Virus record (IMG/VR): IMGVR_UViG_3300044516_001618
Span: 1 to 42,270 of that record
Reading direction: 5' to 3' (one strand)
Origin: a virus
DNA length: 42,270 nucleotides
Below, piece by piece: positions 9,074-36,849 of this stretch (position 1 is the first letter of the stretch; every line of letters starts with the position of its first letter). The position numbers were made by a program, and so were the translations under genes. The notes under the pieces are model-generated. The model was not told where the DNA came from. It worked only from the letters and a program-made list of their open reading frames with translations, and ran no database searches.

Positions 9074-9649
9074 CTATTCGCCATTTAAATAATCATATTC
9101 AGAAAGAGAAACCTGACCCGATCTTATTGATTTCTCTCTTGTTATTTTTTTGCCCATACTTTTTTGCCCATTCCAAACAATTGCTTTGCAGTATGTGGAA
9201 AATTTTGTGTCTATTTTCAATCGTTCATTTCTATCTGGTCTAAATTTCTTTGGAACTACAGACTTCACAATCAAATCAAGCATGCGTTCCTGCTTGTATC
9301 CAAACTTCTGTCTGTTCGCACCATGCCTAGTTCTATTGCTCCACAAATCTTGAAGCTTCACTATTATCTTCTTCATGAAGCCATCAATATTGTGCTGATC
9401 TACAGAAGCCAAACACTTCTCAATATATATCTGTCTTTTATAATAAGATCCAGCACGAATGATTGACAATTGCAATTCTTGATTTATATCTTCAAAATCA
9501 TCAGTGTAATTATTTTTTGAATTTTTCTTTTGCAATTGATGTGCTGCGTAATAACAAAGCTTTCCAAAGCACTTAGTAAGATGATCATATTCCAATTGAG
9601 TTATCGGAAACGATTGGCAAATGTTTTTCGGATTCTTTTGATTTTTCAT
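9074..9649 (-). CDS. Sigma-factor-like protein (T4 gp55-type late sigma candidate)
   Basis: 191 residues, close to T4 gp55 (185). Residues 50-70 (DDFEDINQELQLSIIRAGSYY) resemble sigma70 region 2 (the D-L-x-Q-E-G-x-x-x-L-I-x-A-x-x-x-Y pattern), and 147-173 (DTKFSTYCKAIVWNGQKSMG) resemble the F-S-T-Y core of region 2.3-2.4. The two halves are separated by about 75 basic residues. Region 4 is absent, as in gp55. If correct, it would direct host RNA polymerase to late promoters, and TATAAATA-like sites occur in the window. The start overlaps the upstream polymerase gene by 65 bp, supported by an AGGA before the ATG. Assignment is by pattern only. Confidence 0.45.
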   Translation of the reverse strand: MKNQKNPKNICQSFPITQLEYDHLTKCFGKLCYYAAHQLQKKNSKNNYTDDFEDINQELQLSIIRAGSYYKRQIYIEKCLASVDQHNIDGFMKKIIVKLQDLWSNRTRHGANRQKFGYKQERMLDLIVKSVVPKKFRPDRNERLKIDTKFSTYCKAIVWNGQKSMGKKITREKSIRSGQVSLSEYDYLNGE

Positions 9650-10979
9650 TCTTAGTCCTATTTGGCAGTTTAATTGTTTTCATCTCAGTAATTTTTCTTC
9701 CAACAGAGCAAGAAATGCTCATGCTCAAATTTGGAAATAAATTACATTCTGAAACCAACGATTTATGGGAAGCCAAAATAACTTCTTTTAATTTTTCCCT
9801 GTTTGCATAAATCATATACCCGTCATGTACATTATAAGCTATTCTCCCAATACCATTCAAGGATTTGTAAAGACCAATCAATTGATACAAACAATAAATG
9901 GCAGAAGGAGACTGAACTGCAAAATTTCTAGCCCTATAAGACTTATCTTGAAAATGCCTTATTTTGCCACAATAATCCACAACTTTTTTATCGATTTCGG
10001 CTTTGTTCTGGTGATCTTCAATCCACTTGTAGGCTTTAAAAAATATATTTTTAATTCGGTCAACAATTGCTTCTGCGACTTTTATTGGTAATCCAAACTT
10101 CTCTGATATTCCATAAGCACTCATACCATAAAAGACAGGTAAAAATATTTTTTTACATAATGATCTTTTGTCTTCGGAATCACAAGGAGTTTTCAAAATT
10201 TTCTCATAAGCAACTCTGTAGATGTCTTCGCTATCACACAAACCATTTATTTCCTCATCACCAGACAACCAACCCAACATTTTAACTTCCATGCTTTTGT
10301 AATCCATATAAACAAATACGGAATCAAAATCCAAAGGCTTCAATAATTCACGCTGTTCTGGACTTATGACATGCGGAACGAATGATCTTGTGAGAGCCTT
10401 ATAGCAAAGCATTCTTCCATTTTCTTGACCAGTTATGTCATAAAAGGCATGTAGCTTTTCGGTTGTCAATATGCCAATCGTTTCTAGCGAAGGAACTACT
10501 TCCAAAGCTAAGGGAAGATGAACCGACTTATAAATCTTTTGTGTTTTAGACCAATTATCAGAAGACATGACCTTTTTCAATCTTCCCATGAATTCAATCA
10601 TGGTTTTTGGCTTTTCGAGCTTCGTATCTGTGTAGCTTTCCAAAATCTTAAGATCAATGAGTGTTCCCTTAAATTCAATAGTAATCCCATACATTCCCAA
10701 CAAAAACGAAGCTATGACTTTCCAGTTCCAAACAAGTATCTTTTTGCCTTCACAACACAAAGAATTAGAAAAAGCCTTGGAAAATATTCTTGCAGACCAA
10801 TCTCCATCCAAAGGTATCTCATGCGAACCAAAAGAAGAACAAATAAATATCGTGGCTTCTTTAGCCTTTTCTCTGCTCGTAAAGTCCAATACAGCATCCG
10901 TAGCTGAAAGGTAAACAGCCCCTGTTGCTGCATGATCATACAACAGCTTAACAATTTGACTAGGATGCATGGAACTCAT
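9585..10979 (-). CDS. Compact family-A DNA polymerase
   Basis: 464 residues, much shorter than T7 gp5 (704) or Klenow fragment (about 605). The polymerase domain is recognisable: motif A MDYKSMEVKMLGWLSGDEEI (D226, E231), motif B KRSLCKKIFLPVFYGMSAYG (R272, K276, Y289, G290), an RNFAVQSPSA segment (351-360) matching the conserved R-N-x-x-Q/P region, and motif C YNVHDGYMIYA, where the usual HDE is HDG (385-387). The N-terminal 200 residues are only weakly reminiscent of a 3'-5' exonuclease (TLIDLKILESYT) without a clear acidic triad, so proofreading may be lost. It is the most upstream gene of the leftward replication block. Confidence 0.85.
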   Translation of the reverse strand: MSSMHPSQIVKLLYDHAATGAVYLSATDAVLDFTSREKAKEATIFICSSFGSHEIPLDGDWSARIFSKAFSNSLCCEGKKILVWNWKVIASFLLGMYGITIEFKGTLIDLKILESYTDTKLEKPKTMIEFMGRLKKVMSSDNWSKTQKIYKSVHLPLALEVVPSLETIGILTTEKLHAFYDITGQENGRMLCYKALTRSFVPHVISPEQRELLKPLDFDSVFVYMDYKSMEVKMLGWLSGDEEINGLCDSEDIYRVAYEKILKTPCDSEDKRSLCKKIFLPVFYGMSAYGISEKFGLPIKVAEAIVDRIKNIFFKAYKWIEDHQNKAEIDKKVVDYCGKIRHFQDKSYRARNFAVQSPSAIYCLYQLIGLYKSLNGIGRIAYNVHDGYMIYANREKLKEVILASHKSLVSECNLFPNLSMSISCSVGRKITEMKTIKLPNRTKNEKSKESEKHLPIVSDNSIGI

Positions 10980-22566: not shown

Positions 22567-23723
<1,157 letters not shown>

Positions 23724-23724
<1 letters not shown>

Positions 23725-25055
23725 TGGGATTGAAAATACTAGGAAGCATGATTTTGAAAGGTCAGCTTAAAGCCTTTACTAGCTCTGGTACTACCACGAC
23801 TACAACTACTACGACAGCAGCACCTACAACTACGACTACAACTACAACTACAACTACAGCAGCACCTACAACCACGACTACAACTACTACGACAGCAGCA
23901 CCTACAACCACGACTACAACTACCACAACGACAGCAGCACCAAACACGATGATATTAAGTGTTAATTCGACACCAAGAGCTTTAGTTGGCGGTGGTGTGA
24001 CTTATGATCCAACATTCATAAATGCTGATTACAGACAATATTTTACATCTGTAAACAACAACCTTAACAATTGTATTTTAAACGGTTATCTCCCACTACA
24101 GAACACCTTGAATAGTTCTTATAGCTATACCGTTTCGAGCAAAGCATTACCGACATTCATTTTTGATTTTAGAATTCCAACAGTCATAACGAAATATAGA
24201 ATGTGGAATGGGTTCATGGCTAATATTGGAGTTTATCAAAATTATTCTGATTTAGGCAATCAAACTCCGCAAGCATGGTCATTGCAAGGCAGCAACGATG
24301 AAATAAGTTGGACAACAGTCGATACAAGAACTAGCCAAGCGATGTTGCCTTATGCCAGCACAAATGATCCAGCAACAAGCAGCTATTCGGAATTCGAGAT
24401 ATCATCACCCGCAGCTTATAAATCTTACAGACTTGTTCTCTCGGCAAGAGGTAGAACAGGTTGGAATTGTGGCAAGAGTGGTAATTGTAGTTATGACACT
24501 CAACTCGGAGAAGTACAATTGTGGGGATATGAAAGCCCAACAACACCATGTGCTTTGCATGGATATAATACCTTACTCCCTACTGTGAAATATCTAACAA
24601 GTTCTGGTGTGGTTACGAATACTGATCCATTCAGTTCCGCATTCAACATGAGAACTGTTCTAAACCTTACTGATAGTATAGCTGCATGGACTACTGCAAA
24701 AAACAACGCAAATGCTTTCTTTGTTGCTGCTGGATCTACGAAAGAGGGATATCTGGGATTTGATTACCCTATCACATTGACTTCATATAAACTTTGGAGT
24801 AGTAATGTGTTTGGTGCTATTCCTACTTATTCATTTAGAGTTTATGGTGCGAACACTTTTGGAACATGGACATTATTAGACACAAGAACACTCGCAACAG
24901 TTGGTTCTGCTGCTACTTTTACGATTGCTTCTCCAGCTTTATATTCTTACTACAGAATATCAATATTTGGTAGTTCGGCTACTGCGAGCCAGAAGTCTGG
25001 AGGTGGCTTCTATGGTCTAATAAGAGATATACAGCTACAAGGATATTTAACATAA
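23724..25055 (+). CDS. Poly-Thr-linker protein with two discoidin-like domains
   Basis: 443 residues from the ATG overlapping the upstream TAA; AAGGA is well placed. After a short N-terminus (MGLKILGSMILKGQLKAF), residues about 30-75 are four runs of 9-11 threonines punctuated by AAP, like a mucin linker. Two domains resembling F5/8 type C (discoidin) carbohydrate-binding modules follow. The first has PQAWSLQGSNDEISWTTVDT, YKSYRLVLS and LGEVQLWGYE; the second has YSFRVYGANTFGTWTLLDT, YSYYRISIFG and IRDIQLQGY. It probably displays glycan-binding domains on the virion. The Thr runs could be O-glycosylated or otherwise modified. Confidence 0.75.
23791..23940 (+). repeat. ACN microsatellite encoding Thr runs
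   Basis: Four blocks of repeated act/aca/acg codons separated by GCAGCACCT (Ala-Ala-Pro). Changes in triplet number keep the frame, so linker length can drift without inactivating the gene. Confidence 0.9.
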
Positions 25056-25064
25056 AGGTGAATT

Positions 25065-26330
25065 ATGCCGACTGAAAGAGCTTTAGTAGGAGGTGGAACA
25101 ACATACGACAACACGCAAGTGAGTTCGCAATACCGACCATACTATGAATTCACTACTAGCGATAATACCATATGGAATGTAGATATTATTAGTGCTAGTG
25201 CTTACAGTATAATTGATGGAACTGCAAAGAGTAATAGTTATGTAAACGATCTTTTTACTGGTGTCTTGCCATATCAAAATCCTTGGGATTCACATTATAA
25301 AAATGTCACCGAAGTAGCAACTGCAACCAAAAAAGCATATTTCAACTTTGGTCTTCCAGTAGTGATTACGAAATATAGAATGTACAATTCTTTTGGTGAA
25401 AATGTATATGGAATCACAAATTCTTATTATGGCACAGTTAGCACTAATATGGCTGACGAGACACCACAAGACTGGACTCTATCTGGTTCCAACGATCAAA
25501 TTAATTGGACAACAATTGACACAAGATCTTCGCAAAGTAGATTTCCTTATGCTACAGACAGGCTTGCGAAAAACTGCTCTTATTCGGAATATACCGTAAC
25601 TGGTGCATCTGCATACAAGATTTACAGACTGATAATCACAAAAGGTGGAAGGTCTACTCGTAACACTAAAAGCGGAGTTGTAGAACTAGTAAATGGTTTT
25701 CAAATAGGTGAAATCCAGCTATGGGGCTACGAAAGCCCAGAAACTTCTTGTGAGCTTCATGGTGGATATACTCTATTTCCAAGCCTTAAGTATTTAAATA
25801 GTTCTGGTACTATATTGACAGAAACCGCTGGCACAGCATTTAAGACTAGCTTTCCGAAGGCTTTTTCAGATTTTAGTATTAGATCAAGGAAAACTAACGA
25901 ACCATATCTGAATAGGATTGTACCTACCAACGGAACTAGTACTGTATCTCCATTTAAAGATTACTTTGAGGGTCAGTTTTTTGAAAGTAGTTGGGGTCCA
26001 TTTACGGCAGGAACAGGAGTAATAGCGGATACTGGTTATCTTGATTTTGGAGTGGCAGTAACAATAAGTTCTTACAATATGATTAATAGTAATGTTAATT
26101 CTGGTGCGTGGACTCTGTACGGAAGCAGTAACAATTCGACTTGGACATCAATAGATAATAGGACTGGAATATCGAACAACAATAGCTTGGTGAACTATGC
26201 TATATCCTCTCCCGCATCTTATAGATATTACAAAATGGAACTAAAAAACGGTGCGACATTTAGCAATAAAAGTGGTACTGGCTACACAATACAAGTTTAT
26301 GGTCTTCAATTTATGGGGATTATAACATGA
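25065..26330 (+). CDS. Discoidin-like adhesion protein (no Thr linker)
   Basis: 421 residues, paralogue of the preceding protein starting directly at the domain (MPTERALVGGGTTYDNTQVS aligns with PRALVGGGVTYDPTF). The first domain contains PQDWTLSGSNDQINWTTIDT, YKIYRLIITKGGR and IGEIQLWGYESPE; the second ends SYRYYKMELKNGATFS and YGLQFMGI. Tandem F5/8 type C-like domains bind carbohydrates or surface lipids in other systems. A good ribosome-binding site (AAAGGTGA) precedes it. The stop overlaps the next start (ATGA), coupling it to the first sulfotransferase-like gene. Confidence 0.7.
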   Translation: MPTERALVGGGTTYDNTQVSSQYRPYYEFTTSDNTIWNVDIISASAYSIIDGTAKSNSYVNDLFTGVLPYQNPWDSHYKNVTEVATATKKAYFNFGLPVVITKYRMYNSFGENVYGITNSYYGTVSTNMADETPQDWTLSGSNDQINWTTIDTRSSQSRFPYATDRLAKNCSYSEYTVTGASAYKIYRLIITKGGRSTRNTKSGVVELVNGFQIGEIQLWGYESPETSCELHGGYTLFPSLKYLNSSGTILTETAGTAFKTSFPKAFSDFSIRSRKTNEPYLNRIVPTNGTSTVSPFKDYFEGQFFESSWGPFTAGTGVIADTGYLDFGVAVTISSYNMINSNVNSGAWTLYGSSNNSTWTSIDNRTGISNNNSLVNYAISSPASYRYYKMELKNGATFSNKSGTGYTIQVYGLQFMGIIT

Positions 26331-26860
26331 GAGGCATTTGCTCTTTGATAAACAATAAGGCTTTAGCTTTAGTGACACGAAGTGGAAGTCATGCCTTGAT
26401 GAATTTAATGTTGCCTAAAGACCATGTTAAATTTAAACCAGAAGTTTTAAATGAACAACTTTGGCATCCAATCATGAACTTGCAAGGGCATGATTTAACA
26501 CTAGGTCTTCCAGAATGTGAAGTATGCTGCATGGTAAGAAACCCAATCGAAAGATTCAGAAGTGCATGTGCAAGACGAAACAAAACAGTAGAAGAAGGAT
26601 TGGTCGAAGATGAAGTTCATTTTTGGACTATGGAAAGCATGGGTCTTTTAAACGATAGAATAAAATATTTCCTTTTTCCAGAACAAATTGACGAATGTGC
26701 GAATTGGCTCGGACTTCAAACTCCAGTTCCTAAACTCAACGAAGAAAAAGATGAGAAAAAACCATCTTTAAACGATAATCAGATTAAATTGATCATTGAA
26801 AAATATCATAACGATAATGAATTGTACTTAAAAATAAAGGAAAACTATCATGGCAAATAA
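26327..26860 (+). CDS. Sulfotransferase-like protein A
   Basis: 177 residues. The N-terminal LALVTRSGSHALMNLM (TRSGS at 17-21) resembles the 5'-phosphosulfate loop of PAPS-dependent sulfotransferases, and CCMVRNPIERFRSACARR (about 67-84) resembles the 3'-phosphate motif (R-x-P-x-x-R-x-x-S). The family transfers sulfate from PAPS to hydroxyl or amino groups of glycans, tyrosines or small molecules. The protein is shorter than typical sulfotransferases (about 250-300), so it may be a minimal or specialised form. No membrane segment. It overlaps both neighbours (ATGA at 26327 and 11 bp at 26850). It is a close paralogue of protein B. Confidence 0.6.
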   Translation: MRGICSLINNKALALVTRSGSHALMNLMLPKDHVKFKPEVLNEQLWHPIMNLQGHDLTLGLPECEVCCMVRNPIERFRSACARRNKTVEEGLVEDEVHFWTMESMGLLNDRIKYFLFPEQIDECANWLGLQTPVPKLNEEKDEKKPSLNDNQIKLIIEKYHNDNELYLKIKENYHGK

Positions 26861-27377
26861 AGGTTTTATGTGGCATAAGGACAACATAGGTCTAGCTCTT
26901 GCTACAAGAAGCGGATCACAAGTAATATTCAAAGAATTGATTAAAAAAAATTATCCAGAAGCCAATTCTGATTTTGTGAATACTGAAACAGAATGGAAAC
27001 CCATCATAAATGTTCCAGAGGTCAAAGACTTGAGCATAACAGACTGTTTAAACTTAGGATTTGCCGTTATTGTCAGAGATCCAGTTGAAAGATTCAAAAA
27101 CTCATGTTTGAGATTGTCTTGTTCTGTTGAAGAAGGCTTGAACAATCTTGACAACATACATTTCATGTCATTGAAAAAGATGGGAATTTTAGATTGTGTT
27201 AATGCTAAATATTTCCCTTATTCTGATAAGGGATTAAATGATTGCTGCACATATCTTGGATTAGATGTGACTGTTACTTTACCTGAAGATGGAGATATGC
27301 CAACTTTAAGCCAAGAGCAGATAGATCTCATCAAGCAAGCATATTCATATGATTGTGAGGCTTTCAGCAAGCTATGA
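26850..27377 (+). CDS. Sulfotransferase-like protein B
   Basis: 175 residues, similar in length and order of motifs to protein A: LALATRSGSQVIFKEL (TRSGS 19-23), AVIVRDPVERFKNSC (about 72-86), then a VEEGL motif shared by both and a C-terminal helical part (TLSQEQIDLIKQAYSYD). The lysine usual in the phosphosulfate loop is replaced in both A and B, so catalysis is not assured. It overlaps gene A by 11 bp and the next gene by 4 bp (ATGA), so the set is translated as a unit. The pair probably arose by tandem duplication. Confidence 0.6.
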   Translation: MANKGFMWHKDNIGLALATRSGSQVIFKELIKKNYPEANSDFVNTETEWKPIINVPEVKDLSITDCLNLGFAVIVRDPVERFKNSCLRLSCSVEEGLNNLDNIHFMSLKKMGILDCVNAKYFPYSDKGLNDCCTYLGLDVTVTLPEDGDMPTLSQEQIDLIKQAYSYDCEAFSKL

Positions 27378-27871
27378 AAGTATTTGGCATAGGACTAACC
27401 AGAACTGGAACTACTTCTTTAACTGAAGCATTGAAAGTTCTTGGTTATTCAGCTATTCATTGCCCAATGTCTTATAAAGAAATAGACAGTTTTGATGCAA
27501 GCACAGATACAGCGGTTGCTGCAAGGTTCGAATTTTTAGATTTATTGTATCCAGAATCTAAATTCATACTAACAACCAGAGATATAGATTCTTGGATAGA
27601 AAGTGCTGCTTCTCTTCATAGATCCAGCACAGATCCTGTTTGGCAATTAGAAACTCGATTCATGTTATGGAAGTCTTTCATTTTTGATAAAGATAAATTC
27701 ATTGAAGGGTATCACAGACATCATTCGAAAGTTTCAGAGTATTTCAAAAACAGACAAGATGATCTTTTGATTCTAGATTTAAAAGAAGATGAAAAATTCG
27801 ATAAACTATGCGATTTCTTAAAAAAGAAAACGCCATATATAGATTATCCACACTTAAACAAAAGGCAGTAA
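27374..27871 (+). CDS. Sulfotransferase family protein C
   Basis: 165 residues, a different branch of the family (Sulfotransfer_4-like): GIGLTRTGTTSLTEALKVLG (residues 5-24) is the classic 5'-phosphosulfate loop and FILTTRDIDSWIESAAS (64-80) the 3'-phosphate motif. PAPS must come from the host, since no APS kinase is in the window. It is coupled to protein B by ATGA and followed by a 2OG-Fe(II) oxygenase. Three consecutive sulfotransferase-like genes between fibre genes suggest modification of virion fibres or host surface glycans. Confidence 0.75.
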   Translation: MKVFGIGLTRTGTTSLTEALKVLGYSAIHCPMSYKEIDSFDASTDTAVAARFEFLDLLYPESKFILTTRDIDSWIESAASLHRSSTDPVWQLETRFMLWKSFIFDKDKFIEGYHRHHSKVSEYFKNRQDDLLILDLKEDEKFDKLCDFLKKKTPYIDYPHLNKRQ

Positions 27872-27873
27872 AA

Positions 27874-28431
27874 ATGATAGAAAAAGATGAAAATGTAATG
27901 ATTATAAGAAACTTTATCAATTCTGAAGAAATTCAAATACTAAAAGATTGGACTGCAAAAGCTGTTGCTGAAGGTCAATTCGTAGATGGTATTACTGGAG
28001 ATTGGGATAAGAAAGAATTCAGCACAACAAAAAAAAGGCTCACAAACAGAATGAGTCAAAATATAAACTATCCAGAACTAGTTAAAACCTTGCAAGATCG
28101 AATCCGTCAAGTGGTTCCATTGGTAGGAATTTCTCCAGTCATAGAAGGACATGGAAAAGACGGTGTTGTGGTTAGCGTGACTTACAACGATGGAGATGTT
28201 TACAGACACAAAGATCCAAGTGTTGGTGAAGGACTAGTTGGATTGAGATGTAATATTCTGTCTAGTAAAGCTGAAAGTGGTGGATCTATTCATGTCGAAG
28301 ATAAAACCTATGACTTAAATGAAGGCGACATGATGTGTTACTTGGTAACTGAACTTTATCATAGTGTGGATGTTTGCCATGGAAACACACCAAGAACTCT
28401 TTTTATGTTCGGATTTGCCATAAAACCTTAA
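27874..28431 (+). CDS. 2OG-Fe(II) oxygenase, prolyl-4-hydroxylase-like
   Basis: 185 residues from ATG 27874 (preceded by AAAGG); upstream in-frame codons overlap the previous gene and look non-native. The double-stranded beta-helix ligands are visible: H112-x-D114 (VYRHKDPS), H163 (ELYHSVDVCHG) and R174 (TPRTLFMFGF) for 2-oxoglutarate. The pattern is closest to small prolyl-4-hydroxylases. It lies between collagen-like fibre genes, and collagen hydroxylation is the best-known role of the family, but the fibre triplets are Gly-X-Thr with very few prolines, so the substrate might be another residue or protein. Confidence 0.78.
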   Translation: MIEKDENVMIIRNFINSEEIQILKDWTAKAVAEGQFVDGITGDWDKKEFSTTKKRLTNRMSQNINYPELVKTLQDRIRQVVPLVGISPVIEGHGKDGVVVSVTYNDGDVYRHKDPSVGEGLVGLRCNILSSKAESGGSIHVEDKTYDLNEGDMMCYLVTELYHSVDVCHGNTPRTLFMFGFAIKP

Positions 28432-28446
28432 AATCATTGCAAATAA

Positions 28447-31862
<3,416 letters not shown>

Positions 31863-31863
<1 letters not shown>

Positions 31864-33029
31864 TGCCTTTCATTTCTGGTCCTGATGGCGACCTCAAAAC
31901 CGCTTTCGTTTCTGACGCTTTTCTTCTCGACCAATTCGTGGGAAACACACTGTTTACTTGGGGAAGAAATTCTTATGGTAATTTAGGAGATAACACAATT
32001 GTAAGCAAGTCAAATCCAGTACAAACAGTGGCTGGTGGTATAAACTGGAAACAAGTTAGTGGATGTTCTAACAATTCCGCTGCAATAAAGACAGATGGCA
32101 CTTTATGGGTTTGGGGAGATAATGTTACAAATGGTCAACTTGGAGATAATACTGTTGTACGAAAAAGTTCACCAATTCAAACAATAGCATTTGGAACAAA
32201 TTGGAAGTCCGTTTCTTGTGGTAGTGTGATTACAACAGCAATAAAGACAGATGGAACTTTGTGGTGTTGGGGTTCTAATACAAATGGTGGTTTAGGCGAC
32301 AATACAATTGTAAAAAAATCTTCGCCAGTTCAAACGATTGCTTTTGGAATAAATTGGAAACAAGTATCTTGTGGTTACGCTTATACGGCATGTATAAAGA
32401 CAGATGGAACACTTTGGTGTTGGGGACTTAATTCATCTGGTCAGTTGGGTGACAATTCTGCAACGAAAAGAAGTTCGCCAGTTCAAACAATAGCACTTGG
32501 AAAAAATTGGAAGCAAGTTGCTTGTGGAGGCTCTAATACAGCAGCAATAAAGACAGATGGAACACTTTGGTGTTGGGGATATAATACATTTGGATCATTA
32601 GGAGATAATACAAATACAAATAGATCATCGCCAATTCAAACAATAACATATGGAACAAATTGGAAAAGTGTTTCTTGTGGAGTTTATCACACAGCAGCAA
32701 TAAAAACAGATGGTACTTTATGGACTTGGGGATATAATTTTTATGGTGAACTTGGTGACAATACAACGACACAAAGAACTTCACCTGTTCAAACAATTAC
32801 TTTTGATACAAATTGGAAACAAGTTTCTTGTGGTAATGGGGTTACAGCAGCAATAAAGACAGATGGAACACTTTGGTCATGGGGTAATAATGATAATGGA
32901 CAATTAGGCAATCAAAGCTCAGTAACTAGAAGATCATCACCAGTACAAACAACAGCATATGGAACAAATTGGAAACAAGTTGCTTGTGGTTATTATCACA
33001 CAGTAGCAGTAACGAACGGAGATATATAA
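31863..33029 (+). CDS. RCC1-repeat propeller protein 1
   Basis: 388 residues: a 30-residue N-terminal tag (MPFISGPDGDLKTAFVSDAF) followed by seven repeats of about 50 residues, LFTWGRNSYGNLGDNT to LWSWGNNDNGQLGNQSS, each ending [22 protein letters not shown]. The N-terminal strand and C-terminal HTVAVTNGDI would close a seven-bladed ring, as in RCC1. The core is invariant while residues in the W-G-x-N and T-x-x-K/R loops vary between blades, as expected for binding loops. It is coupled to the large fibre by TAATG with AAGGAGG. Probably a tail-tip or receptor-binding protein. Confidence 0.82.
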
Positions 33030-33699: not shown

Positions 33700-34905
33700 A
33701 TGGCAGTTACAGGAAGCATCACAACTAGATTCATAGATGAGAAAGGACTAGATCTTGGAAAGACCTTGATCGAGAAGGACTACCTCATCTCCGTATACCC
33801 AAATATTGTAAATCAAATGGATACTCCCATGCTGATGACTTGGGGAAGAAACACTTATGGTCAATTAGGCGATAACACACAGACTTCAAGATCATCACCA
33901 GTCCAAACAATTACTTATGGTGCAAATTGGAAAAGTGTTGCTTGTGGGTATTCTACACTTGCAATAAAAACAGACGGAGCCTTATGGTGTTGGGGAGATA
34001 ATAGCAGTGGACAATTAGGCGACAATACAATTGTAAAAAGATCATCTCCAGTGCAAACAGTTGCAGGTGGAACAAACTGGAAAAGTGTGTCTTCTGGATC
34101 GTACCATTGTGCAGCGACAAAGACTGATGGAACTTTGTGGAATTGGGGCAGAAATACAAGCGGACAGCTTGGTGACAATACAAGTACAAATAGATCTTCA
34201 CCAGTTCAAACGATTGCATTTGGCACAAATTGGAAACAAGTTTCTGCTGGATATAGATCTACAACAGCAGCAATAAAAAATGATGGAACACTTTGGACTT
34301 GGGGCGGAAATTCTTATGGTCAATTAGGGGACAATACAAGTGTAAATAAATCTTCACCTGTTCAAACGGTAACCAGAGGAACAAATTGGAAACAAGTGGC
34401 TTGTGGAAGTTACAATGTAGCAGCGATCAAGACAGATGGAACTTTGTGGACTTGGGGGTATAACAATTCTGGTGGCTTAGGCGACAATACAACTACAAAT
34501 AGATCATCACCAATTCAAACGATTGCATATGGTACAAACTGGAAACAAGTAGCTTCTGGCTATCAAAATACAGCAGCAATAAAGACTGATGGCACATTAT
34601 GGTGTTGGGGTTCTAATACAAATGGTCAATTAGGTGACAACACAACTGTTGATAAATCATCACCTGTTCAAACAATTTGTGGCGGAACTGACTGGAAATC
34701 CGTTTCTTGTGGAGAAAAATTTACCGCAGCAATAAAGAACAATGGAACTTTGTGGACTTGGGGAAGAAATTTTTTTGGTCAACTTGGCGACAACTCATCG
34801 GCAAGCAGATCATCACCTGTGCAGACTATTTTATATGGACAAAACTGGAAAAGTGTTTCTTGCGGATCAGTAAATACAGCAGCAATAAAGGACGGTGATT
34901 TTTGA
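33700..34905 (+). CDS. RCC1-repeat propeller protein 2
   Basis: 401 residues with a different N-terminal tag (MAVTGSITTRFIDEKGLDLG, about 45 residues) and seven repeats from [16 protein letters not shown] to LWTWGRNFFGQLGDNSS. The core consensus is the same as in the neighbours, with changes concentrated in loops (RNTYG, DNSSG, RNTSG, GNSYG, YNNSG, SNTNG, RNFFG). It ends SVNTAAIKDGDF, closing the ring. The end overlaps the next start (TTGA). Confidence 0.82.
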   Translation: MAVTGSITTRFIDEKGLDLGKTLIEKDYLISVYPNIVNQMDTPMLMTWGRNTYGQLGDNTQTSRSSPVQTITYGANWKSVACGYSTLAIKTDGALWCWGDNSSGQLGDNTIVKRSSPVQTVAGGTNWKSVSSGSYHCAATKTDGTLWNWGRNTSGQLGDNTSTNRSSPVQTIAFGTNWKQVSAGYRSTTAAIKNDGTLWTWGGNSYGQLGDNTSVNKSSPVQTVTRGTNWKQVACGSYNVAAIKTDGTLWTWGYNNSGGLGDNTTTNRSSPIQTIAYGTNWKQVASGYQNTAAIKTDGTLWCWGSNTNGQLGDNTTVDKSSPVQTICGGTDWKSVSCGEKFTAAIKNNGTLWTWGRNFFGQLGDNSSASRSSPVQTILYGQNWKSVSCGSVNTAAIKDGDF

Positions 34906-35405
34906 TAATACAGATAGAAAATTTCTACAACACGCAAAATCTATATGAAGTGGTAAAAGACCTCCAGTTCAAGGAGAACACTTACGGAGAAGAAATCGTA
35001 GACTTCAACCTAGTTCCAGAAAACCTGCACAAAGTCTTTGGCGAAATCCTCAATCAAGAAATTACCATTACGAAAGAATCTGGAATACTCAGAAAACCAT
35101 TCGAGAACATCCACTTCGAAAGTTTCAACCAGAACAGCCTTTGGGTCTGCATAATCCCACTTGAGAAAACTACATTCAAATTGCATAGACACAAGGAAAA
35201 GAACTACTCCAATGTAATGCAAGTACAGGAAGAACTACAAGTATTCATAAAGGAAAACTGCTTCAATAAAGAAAATTGGAATGACTCAGCCACATTTGAA
35301 CTTAACGCTGGCGACATGGTCATGTTTAAACCTTTTTTGTGGCACTCAATTTCTAAGAATCTTGTGAAGGTTTTCTATCTGGAGGCAAATGTCAACACCA
35401 TTTAG
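34902..35405 (+). CDS. Cupin/2OG-oxygenase-like double-stranded beta-helix protein
   Basis: 167 residues from a TTG that overlaps the upstream TGA; a GGTGA lies just upstream. N-terminal IENFYNTQNLYEVVKDLQF is typical of small phage 2OG-oxygenase-like proteins. Beta-helix strands include NSLWVCIIPLEKTTFKLHRH (H95, H97), and ELNAGDMVMFKPFLWHSISK supplies H148. An obvious H-x-D is missing, so metal binding or activity is uncertain. It sits between two RCC1 genes and overlaps the second by 17 bp. Its 3' end is partly duplicated at 36864-36893. Confidence 0.5.
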   Translation: MIIQIENFYNTQNLYEVVKDLQFKENTYGEEIVDFNLVPENLHKVFGEILNQEITITKESGILRKPFENIHFESFNQNSLWVCIIPLEKTTFKLHRHKEKNYSNVMQVQEELQVFIKENCFNKENWNDSATFELNAGDMVMFKPFLWHSISKNLVKVFYLEANVNTI

Positions 35406-36849
35406 ATTCAATAATGCTGATAATACGACAGTAGATTTCGAAGACTATTATGTTCGTGCGGATTACTTCAGAAGCGGGAATCTGTGGTCTTGGGGGTATA
35501 ACAATTCTGGTCAATTAGGCGACAATACAACCGCAAATAAATCATCACCAGTTCAAACAATTACAGGTGGAACAAATTGGAAACAGGTTGCTGTTGGGGG
35601 TAGCATGACAGCATGTATAAAGACAGACGGAACATTATGGTGTTGGGGATATAATTATGAAGGTCAAATTGGCGATAACACAACAGTAAAGAAATCATCA
35701 CCAGTACAGACTATTGCTGGCGGAACAAATTGGAAAAGTGTTACTTGTGGATCGTACCATTGTGCAGCGATAAAGACAGATGGAACATTATGGGGTTGGG
35801 GATCTAATAATTCTGGACAATTGGCAGTGTGGGGTGGAGGCAGTCCTGCCTCTGCTGGTTATGCTGGCACAAGTCCAGTTACCGTTTCTGGTTCTAGAAA
35901 CGGTACTGTTGCTACATTTCTTACATCTAACACTACTGGAGTGTCTGTAGGCATGAATGTGTATACATCCACAGGCGCCGCACTATGGACTACCGTAACT
36001 GCGATAAATACAAATGTCAGCATAACTTTTGATACAAATAATCAATACTCAAGAGAGACATGGACTGGAACGGTAAGTCTTGGAGTTGGTGCGATAAAGC
36101 CTTCTGCTGCAATTTTAGATTTCACAAACAATAGATCATCACCAGTACAGACGGTTGCCTTTGGAACAAATTGGAAACAAGTTTCTTGTGGACAATCTCA
36201 CACAGCAGCGATAAAAACAGATGGTACTTTGTGGTGCTGGGGTTATGGTGGCTTAGGTGGCTTAGGCGACAATTCGATAACAAATAGATCATCACCAGTG
36301 CAAACTGTTGCTTTCGGAACAAACTGGATGCAAGTTTCTGTCGGATCTAATTACACGACATGTATAAAGACAGATGGCACACTTTGGACTTGGGGATCGA
36401 ATGCGACTTATGGTCAGCTTGGCGACAATACAGTTGCACCAAAAAGCTCACCTGTTCAGACGGTTGCCTTTGGAACAAATTGGAAACAAGTTTCCGCTGG
36501 CAATGGAACAACGACATGTATAAAGACAGATGGTACTTTGTGGTGCTGGGGTTATGGTGGAACTGGTCTATTAGGCGACAATACAAACGCAAATAAATCA
36601 TCACCAGTTCAAACAGTTACAGGTGGAAATAATTGGAAGCAAGTTTCTTGCTTTAATTATACGACAGCAATAAAAACCGATGGAACGCTTTGGTGTTGGG
36701 GAGGTAATTCAGATGGTGGATTAGGTGACAACACTACAACAACAAGATCATCGCCAGTTCAAACTATAATGTATGGCACTAACTGGAATCAAGTATCTGG
36801 CGGTTTTTATCAAGCAGCAGCGATACAATACCAAGATGACTATCAATAG
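35389..36849 (+). CDS. RCC1-repeat propeller protein 3 with inserted domain
   Basis: 486 residues. The N-terminal tag MSTPFRFNNADNTTVDFEDY is shared with protein 4. Seven repeats from [16 protein letters not shown] to LWCWGGNSDGGLGDNT, but blade 3 (LWGWGSNNSGQL) is interrupted by about 100 residues (about 146-247; DNA 35824-36130) of a beta-rich, Gly/Ser/Thr-rich segment (SPVTVSGSRNGTVATFLTS) before the blade resumes with NNRSSPVQT. The insertion replaces the GDNT loop, so it would project from the ring surface. Blade 5 shares a 41-bp exact DNA match with the large fibre. The ribosome-binding site (GGAGG) lies inside the upstream gene. Confidence 0.82.
   Translation: MSTPFRFNNADNTTVDFEDYYVRADYFRSGNLWSWGYNNSGQLGDNTTANKSSPVQTITGGTNWKQVAVGGSMTACIKTDGTLWCWGYNYEGQIGDNTTVKKSSPVQTIAGGTNWKSVTCGSYHCAAIKTDGTLWGWGSNNSGQLAVWGGGSPASAGYAGTSPVTVSGSRNGTVATFLTSNTTGVSVGMNVYTSTGAALWTTVTAINTNVSITFDTNNQYSRETWTGTVSLGVGAIKPSAAILDFTNNRSSPVQTVAFGTNWKQVSCGQSHTAAIKTDGTLWCWGYGGLGGLGDNSITNRSSPVQTVAFGTNWMQVSVGSNYTTCIKTDGTLWTWGSNATYGQLGDNTVAPKSSPVQTVAFGTNWKQVSAGNGTTTCIKTDGTLWCWGYGGTGLLGDNTNANKSSPVQTVTGGNNWKQVSCFNYTTAIKTDGTLWCWGGNSDGGLGDNTTTTRSSPVQTIMYGTNWNQVSGGFYQAAAIQYQDDYQ

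Follow-up and report, generated by a model that had tools for sequence, protein, structure and literature searches.

The 42,270-nucleotide viral DNA IMGVR_UViG_3300044516_001618 (positions 1 to 42,270 of that record, hereafter the window) carries within its fibre locus four consecutive genes, encoding two paralogous short sulfotransferases (ST_A and ST_B), a sulfotransferase of another branch (ST_C) and a 2-oxoglutarate (2OG)-Fe(II) oxygenase (OX). Comparison with related loci suggests that the four genes probably act as a mobile cassette that modifies the adjoining adhesins, in which OX would hydroxylate the lysine of a short hairpin and the sulfotransferases would sulfate that residue or one beside it. 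The cassette genes are linked behind unrelated adhesin genes, their catalytic residues are conserved, and the presence of the hairpin motif tracks that of the cassette.

A conserved cassette and a hairpin motif that tracks it

We compared 17 non-redundant OX loci from uncultivated phages, whose contigs may be incomplete. Separate searches with ST_A and with OX return nearly identical sets of contigs, and in nearly every locus recovered independently with either protein OX adjoins an A/B-type sulfotransferase gene, usually with an overlap. These two genes form the conserved core behind unrelated adhesin genes in the 17 loci, with a second A/B copy and ST_C as optional additions; the four genes are therefore not the fixed single pathway that the original prediction had made of them. 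The window and two relatives (L047 and L049) have ST_B and ST_C between ST_A and OX, and L083, L084, L085 and L143 show other gene orders with B-type genes, ST_C being present also in L085 and L143. ST_A and OX retain 71-97% identity between loci in which the adhesins are unrelated or half divergent. Between the window and L049, for example, ST_A and OX differ at 17-19% of amino acids whereas the adhesins differ at 53%. Furthermore, adhesins of different types are interspersed on the OX tree, so that cassette and adhesin were paired more than once.

The motif, C-x-K-x-[GS]-C with 0-2 extra residues before the last cysteine, is present in a cassette-adjoining adhesin in 16 of the 17 loci. The remaining locus, L085, has K-x-G (S-GKGGS) at a variable loop where its homologue in L084 has CDKVGC. 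The motif occurs 34 times in total, distributed over 22 adhesins, whereas composition shuffles predict a mean of 0.02 copies, with none of the 2000 shuffles exceeding 1. Within the cassette loci the motif is restricted to the one or two genes adjoining the cassette. This includes L060, L062 and L084, where the motif gene was scored as 'distant' but is the immediate upstream neighbour of ST_A or OX. Every C-x-x-x-G-(0-2)-C in the cassette-adjoining genes has lysine at position 3. Five unrelated scaffolds carry the motif, namely discoidin, the LamG-like EGFENYSS family (where the loop beside OX reads C[GD]K[SNG]GC), the L052 protein (3 copies), the fn3+LamG_3 protein of L083 and the MSLPKTQWRY protein. 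L083, which is negative for the first form of the pattern, has CDKTSC in the adhesin whose gene immediately precedes OX, and the second copy in L048, L050 and L055 lies inside an insertion unique to these three. A motif scan of whole contigs at the DNA level gave extra matches outside the locus, and the three that were translated were not in frame.

Related sulfotransferase genes that lie behind adhesins without OX (see below) provide a comparison. The motif was found in 0 of the 34 genes directly upstream of them, and in none of the 62 genes at the first or second position upstream. The association of the motif with OX has a Fisher p of 2e-12, which overstates the certainty as kinship is uncorrected and the loci are not independent draws. 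The co-occurrence in related phages that the original prediction had set as a test is thus strongly positive for adhesins bearing the C-x-K-x-[GS]-C hairpin and does not extend to collagen-like fibres.

The adhesins next to the cassette in the window are two discoidin-like proteins, which together contain four loops at the motif position:

23691..25055, + strand: DISC0, a T/A/P-linker and two discoidin-like domains; proposed substrate
25065..26330, + strand: DISC1, two discoidin-like domains, directly upstream of ST_A; proposed substrate
24468..24488, + strand: CGKSGNC, the full motif in the first domain of DISC0
24987..25007, + strand: SQKSGGG, second domain of DISC0, cysteines lost, K-S-G kept
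25662..25679, + strand: NTKSGV, first domain of DISC1, cysteines lost, K-S-G kept
26262..26282, + strand: SNKSGTG, second domain of DISC1, cysteines lost, K-S-G kept

Three of the four loops lack cysteines and retain K-S-G, and K215, G217 and K420 are invariant across six aligned DISC1 proteins. Both loops of the L047 DISC1 likewise lack cysteines and keep the lysine. Since the window loops keep K-S-G and these positions are invariant, the alignments point to the lysine as the residue that matters, with the disulfide as an accessory. The cysteines were rejected as required partners, being lost in the window loops and in L085, and the motif serine was rejected as the target as many copies have G, N, D, Y, V or T instead.

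A small number of natural controls show the motif lost from homologous adhesins where the cassette is absent. In a homologous DISC0-DISC1 pair (L176/L177) the lysine has gone from all four loops, and OX and ST_A are both missing from the whole of the 144-kb L177 contig. In the LamG-like homologues L161-L164 the aligned loop reads N/S-x-G-R-T-G, with neither cysteines nor lysine.

Near LamG-like adhesins in L162, L163 and L164 (about 4.1-11.9 kb) and in L051 (about 13.3-18.4 kb) we also observed a sulfotransferase with PKSGTTYLC, radical S-adenosylmethionine proteins (SCNLSC-GCSHFSN) and proteins resembling glycosyltransferases, which may form another set for adhesin modification.

The four genes and their products

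The cassette genes of the window are as follows:

26327..26860, + strand: ST_A, 177 aa, short sulfotransferase in a Sulfotransfer_2-related phage family; core cassette gene
26850..27377, + strand: ST_B, 175 aa, paralogue of ST_A; optional, with relatives adjoining OX in L049, L083, L084, L085 and L143
27374..27871, + strand: ST_C, 165 aa, Sulfotransfer_4 (PF17784) enzyme; optional
27874..28431, + strand: OX, 2OG-Fe(II) oxygenase of the prolyl hydroxylase domain/prolyl 4-hydroxylase (PHD/P4H) fold; core cassette gene

The start of ST_A overlaps the stop of DISC1 by 4 nt (ATGA), ST_B overlaps ST_A by 11 nt and ST_C overlaps ST_B by 4 nt. OX starts at ATG 27874, 2 nt past the ST_C stop, which matches the start position in its relatives; the start at 27808 implied earlier was too early. 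For all four genes the divergence between the window and L049 is 0.39-0.53 at third codon positions and 0.06-0.22 at second positions, a ratio of two to seven in each gene. This excess at third positions indicates that the four genes are real and under protein-level selection. The four open reading frames (ORFs) originally described were confirmed, as were the discoidin-like and collagen-like neighbours.

In OX the residues H114-x-D116...H165...R176 are invariant in 17 sequences. Its structural model (mean predicted local distance difference test score, pLDDT, 89) matches PHD/P4H-type 2OG oxygenases with E 1.2e-7 and a template modelling (TM) score of 0.62. Together these features, an HxD...H triad with an arginine and a predicted double-stranded beta helix, place OX in the 2OG-Fe(II) oxygenase superfamily. 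OX gave no match to P4H family models in Pfam, NCBIfam or PHROG, and its profile retrieved no solved hydroxylase, lysyl hydroxylase included, from the PDB sequences. Its candidate target motif contains no proline. Assignment as a WelO5-type halogenase was rejected, as OX has HKD (HxD) and not HxG and the Pfam match is weak (0.003, below the cut-off). The LamG-like adhesin of L060 and L062 is flanked by two oxygenases, as a further, remote 2OG oxygenase (1245-1772 in L060, 7949-8608 in L062) is encoded just upstream of it.

ST_A and ST_B share 34% identity and have no direct Pfam match. A close relative matches Sulfotransfer_2 (PF03567) with E 4.7e-4, the best relative scoring 20.8 bits against a cut-off of 22, which leaves ST_A/B outside the family at its curated threshold. 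ST_A has 119 relatives in viral contigs. It contains TRSGSH, which resembles a 5' phosphosulfate loop, and VRNPIERFRS, which resembles a 3' phosphate site, both conserved; the wider A/B family keeps RSGS[HY] and VR[ND]P[VI]ERF, with RSGS and VRNPxERF near-invariant. The leading PDB matches of the AlphaFold model of ST_A (pLDDT 84) in Foldseek are sulfotransferases, with 3rnl, heparan sulfate N-sulfotransferase and SULT enzymes among the first, though at weak scores (for 3rnl, probability 0.98 but TM 0.37 and E 4e-3). Motifs and model together suggest a 3'-phosphoadenosine 5'-phosphosulfate (PAPS) sulfotransferase fold with both the 5' and the 3' PAPS-site motifs. ST_C belongs clearly to Sulfotransfer_4 (E 1.9e-28, 100 bits against a curated cut-off of 22.8) and matches solved relatives with E 7.6e-9. 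Its close relatives (at least 60% identity) occur only beside OX.

A large unannotated family of sulfotransferase-like genes of 160-175 aa lies directly behind adhesin or fibre genes without OX (L064-L082 and L086-L123) and spans many unrelated phages. One clade almost always follows a glycine-rich (PF21722-like) C-terminal domain ending GAVVLYFT. The partner domain of another contains L-x-K-x-G-x-Y, 13 copies in 5.6 kaa against a background of 1.1 per 10 kaa; this is suggestive, and we make no sequon claim for it as the partner domains are homologous.

Among 50,697 named phage records, ST_A, ST_C, DISC1, the LamG-like adhesin and the OX-less sulfotransferases have no relatives, and the only match to OX is a remote cyanophage protein, from S-SCSM1, with 28% identity. 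A genome scan with OX gave no matches. The corresponding scan with ST_A retrieved three remote relatives, and in two cases the preceding gene is fibre-like. Remote ST_A relatives on bacterial genome contigs (939-1505 of L182, from a Pirellulaceae metagenome-assembled genome (MAG), and 7818-8717 of L183, from a Puniceicoccaceae MAG) directly follow a collagen-like or tail-fibre-like gene in surroundings that look like prophage tail regions.

By its replication genes (single-stranded DNA-binding protein, DnaB-type helicase, UvsW-like helicase and a polymerase piece) the window contig looks T4-like, with only distant named relatives. The ORF at 9585-10979 (- strand) matches only a C-terminal part of phage DNA polymerase profiles and may belong to a split or fragmented polymerase. 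Downstream of OX, the fibre locus encodes four RCC1-repeat proteins (28510-31863, 31863-33029, 33700-34905 and 35389-36849), the first of which is a collagen-like and RCC1 fibre with a C-terminal Peptidase_S74 chaperone domain.

A model for adhesin modification and its alternatives

We propose that OX hydroxylates the invariant lysine of a short, exposed hairpin, in C-x-K-x-[GS]-C or in K-S-G without cysteines, in the reducing cytosol of the infected cell; in the window the substrates would be the discoidin-like adhesins encoded just upstream. An A/B sulfotransferase, joined by ST_C in the window phage, would then add sulfate from host PAPS to the new hydroxyl or to a neighbouring residue, and ST_C may add a further sulfate. 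Where cysteines remain, the loop would close by a disulfide after release. The virion would then display small sulfated loops on its host-binding proteins, probably tuning receptor binding. The hairpin as substrate is the firmer half of this model, the identity of the sulfate-bearing residue the less firm.

Several observations weigh against this model. A/B-type sulfotransferases are also found behind adhesins without OX, and therefore the sulfated residue need not be hydroxylysine; a nearby tyrosine is common in discoidin loop 1. OX is without a sequence-level match to a known protein hydroxylase. In the control contig L164, a LamG-like adhesin without the motif lies next to a remote OX (E 5e-42). 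The controls are few and their contigs possibly incomplete, and cassette-less discoidin adhesins were found only twice, as near-identical copies. Finally, the motif was initially recognized in 11 loci, as C-x-K-[SG]-[GS]-C, and then widened twice, to any residue at position 4 and to either G or S at position 5; part of the supporting data had served to define it, and it was counted in the same loci.

An unlikely alternative, though the strongest of those considered, is that the cassette modifies a small molecule or a glycan of the host, as in a surface sulfation that blocks superinfection, and that the hairpin is a binding loop for the modified receptor which travels with the cassette and is not its substrate. 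Most known Sulfotransfer_2 enzymes sulfate glycans, heparan sulfate sulfotransferases are among the fold matches of ST_A, and discoidin and LamG-like domains are of glycan-binding types. A ligand-binding loop would however not be expected to hold one short linear pattern across folds, and here the same hexapeptide occurs on five unrelated scaffolds, in up to 3 copies per protein, and tracks OX and not the sulfotransferase. The cassette genes, moreover, adjoin and overlap the adhesin gene in a structural locus. It also seems rather improbable that the hairpin is merely a stable disulfide turn favoured in adhesins and that its linkage to the cassette reflects hitch-hiking of neighbouring genes. 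Neighbours in fibre loci are often exchanged together and x-K-x-G turns are common in hairpins, but the motif is common to unrelated scaffolds and lost from the same scaffolds without the cassette, and the lysine with its glycine outlasts both cysteines, the reverse of what a structural disulfide predicts.

Two further schemes appear very unlikely. The two cysteines flanking the lysine would suit a mechanism where sulfate is a leaving group and the activated lysine carbon is attacked by a hairpin cysteine thiol or lysine amine to give a thioether cross-link or ring, and ring closure with sulfate as the leaving group is known chemistry (a PDB entry title names sulfation-assisted ring formation for LGS1). 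A cysteine cross-link is nevertheless impossible in three of the four window loops and in both L047 DISC1 loops, which keep the lysine without cysteines. We give slightly less credence still to the collagen-like Gly-X-Thr fibres as the target of hydroxylation and sulfation. The cassette lies between collagen-like genes in the window and in L047, and viral lysyl hydroxylation of collagen is known in mimivirus (PMC5802723). However, in 12 of the 17 cassette loci the sequence covered (at most 10 kb either side, often ended by contig ends) contains no run of eight or more Gly-x-x units, long near-pure Gly-X-Thr runs occur only in the window and its closest relative, and the repeats are almost devoid of proline and lysine (4 prolines and 1 lysine in the 1,119 aa of the window repeat). 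It is with adhesins that the motif co-occurs. Of the original proposal that the phage hydroxylates and sulfates its own fibres, self-modification best fits the comparative data, and the Gly-X-Thr fibres are an unlikely substrate.

It is quite possible, though we would not yet call it probable, that modification of the adhesin hairpin is a new type of protein modification, in which a phage-encoded, sequon-directed hydroxylation of a K-x-G hairpin is followed by sulfation, giving O-sulfo-hydroxylysine or a sulfate-activated cross-link, through a cassette swapped between unrelated receptor-binding scaffolds, and that phages more generally possess a large, unannotated family of mini-sulfotransferases dedicated to adhesins, in which every subfamily goes with a single adhesin C-terminal domain. 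Phage receptor-binding proteins have so far been treated as products of sequence alone. If the model is correct, host range has a chemical layer that is missed by sequence-based prediction and by recombinant adhesins. The model also offers a specific, testable substrate for phage 2OG oxygenases, hitherto tied to nitrogen sensing or DNA repair, and a short tag usable as a peptide substrate in enzyme assays. The ST_A/B finding names a widespread, unannotated sulfotransferase family.

Comparison with known systems

The original prediction knew of no described example of such a pathway. A literature search, with most subscription papers outside its reach, likewise found no precedent, nor any publication in which a phage sulfotransferase acts on virions. 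The 2OG-Fe(II) oxygenases of T4-like cyanophages, which are tied to 2OG/nitrogen signalling or AlkB-like DNA repair (PMC3037559, PMC2984593; neither mentions a sulfotransferase), belong to the OX superfamily and also occur in T4-like phages, but they are remote from OX and lie outside this cassette. The modelled fold of OX is that of the HIF prolyl hydroxylase PHD2 and prolyl 4-hydroxylase (6t8m, 4j25), with the same HxD...H and arginine; OX differs from them in having no sequence match and in a conserved candidate target lysine with no proline in the motif.

The ST_A/B relatives share VRNPxERF and a C-terminal L..Y..D..LY..L pattern with Sulfotransfer_2 and the heparan and chondroitin O-sulfotransferases, but are only about 165-177 aa long, fall below the Pfam cut-off, are phage-specific and always lie behind adhesin genes. 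ST_C has the RTGT and TTRD motifs of Sulfotransfer_4 enzymes such as the schistosome oxamniquine-activating sulfotransferase (6b4x), from which it differs as a shorter phage gene product (165 aa) linked to OX.

The nearest idea is that of mimivirus L230, a 2OG-Fe(II) collagen lysyl hydroxylase which is reported to glycosylate the resulting hydroxylysine and whose assay peptide, ETGLKGII, has lysine followed by glycine (PMC5802723, PMC9546862). As proposed for OX, this viral 2OG-Fe(II) enzyme hydroxylates lysine before a second group is added. The mimivirus system however has an amoeba host, a collagen target and a glycosyl second step, whereas in the cassette the second group would be sulfate and the lysine that of the adhesin C-x-K-x-[GS]-C hairpin.

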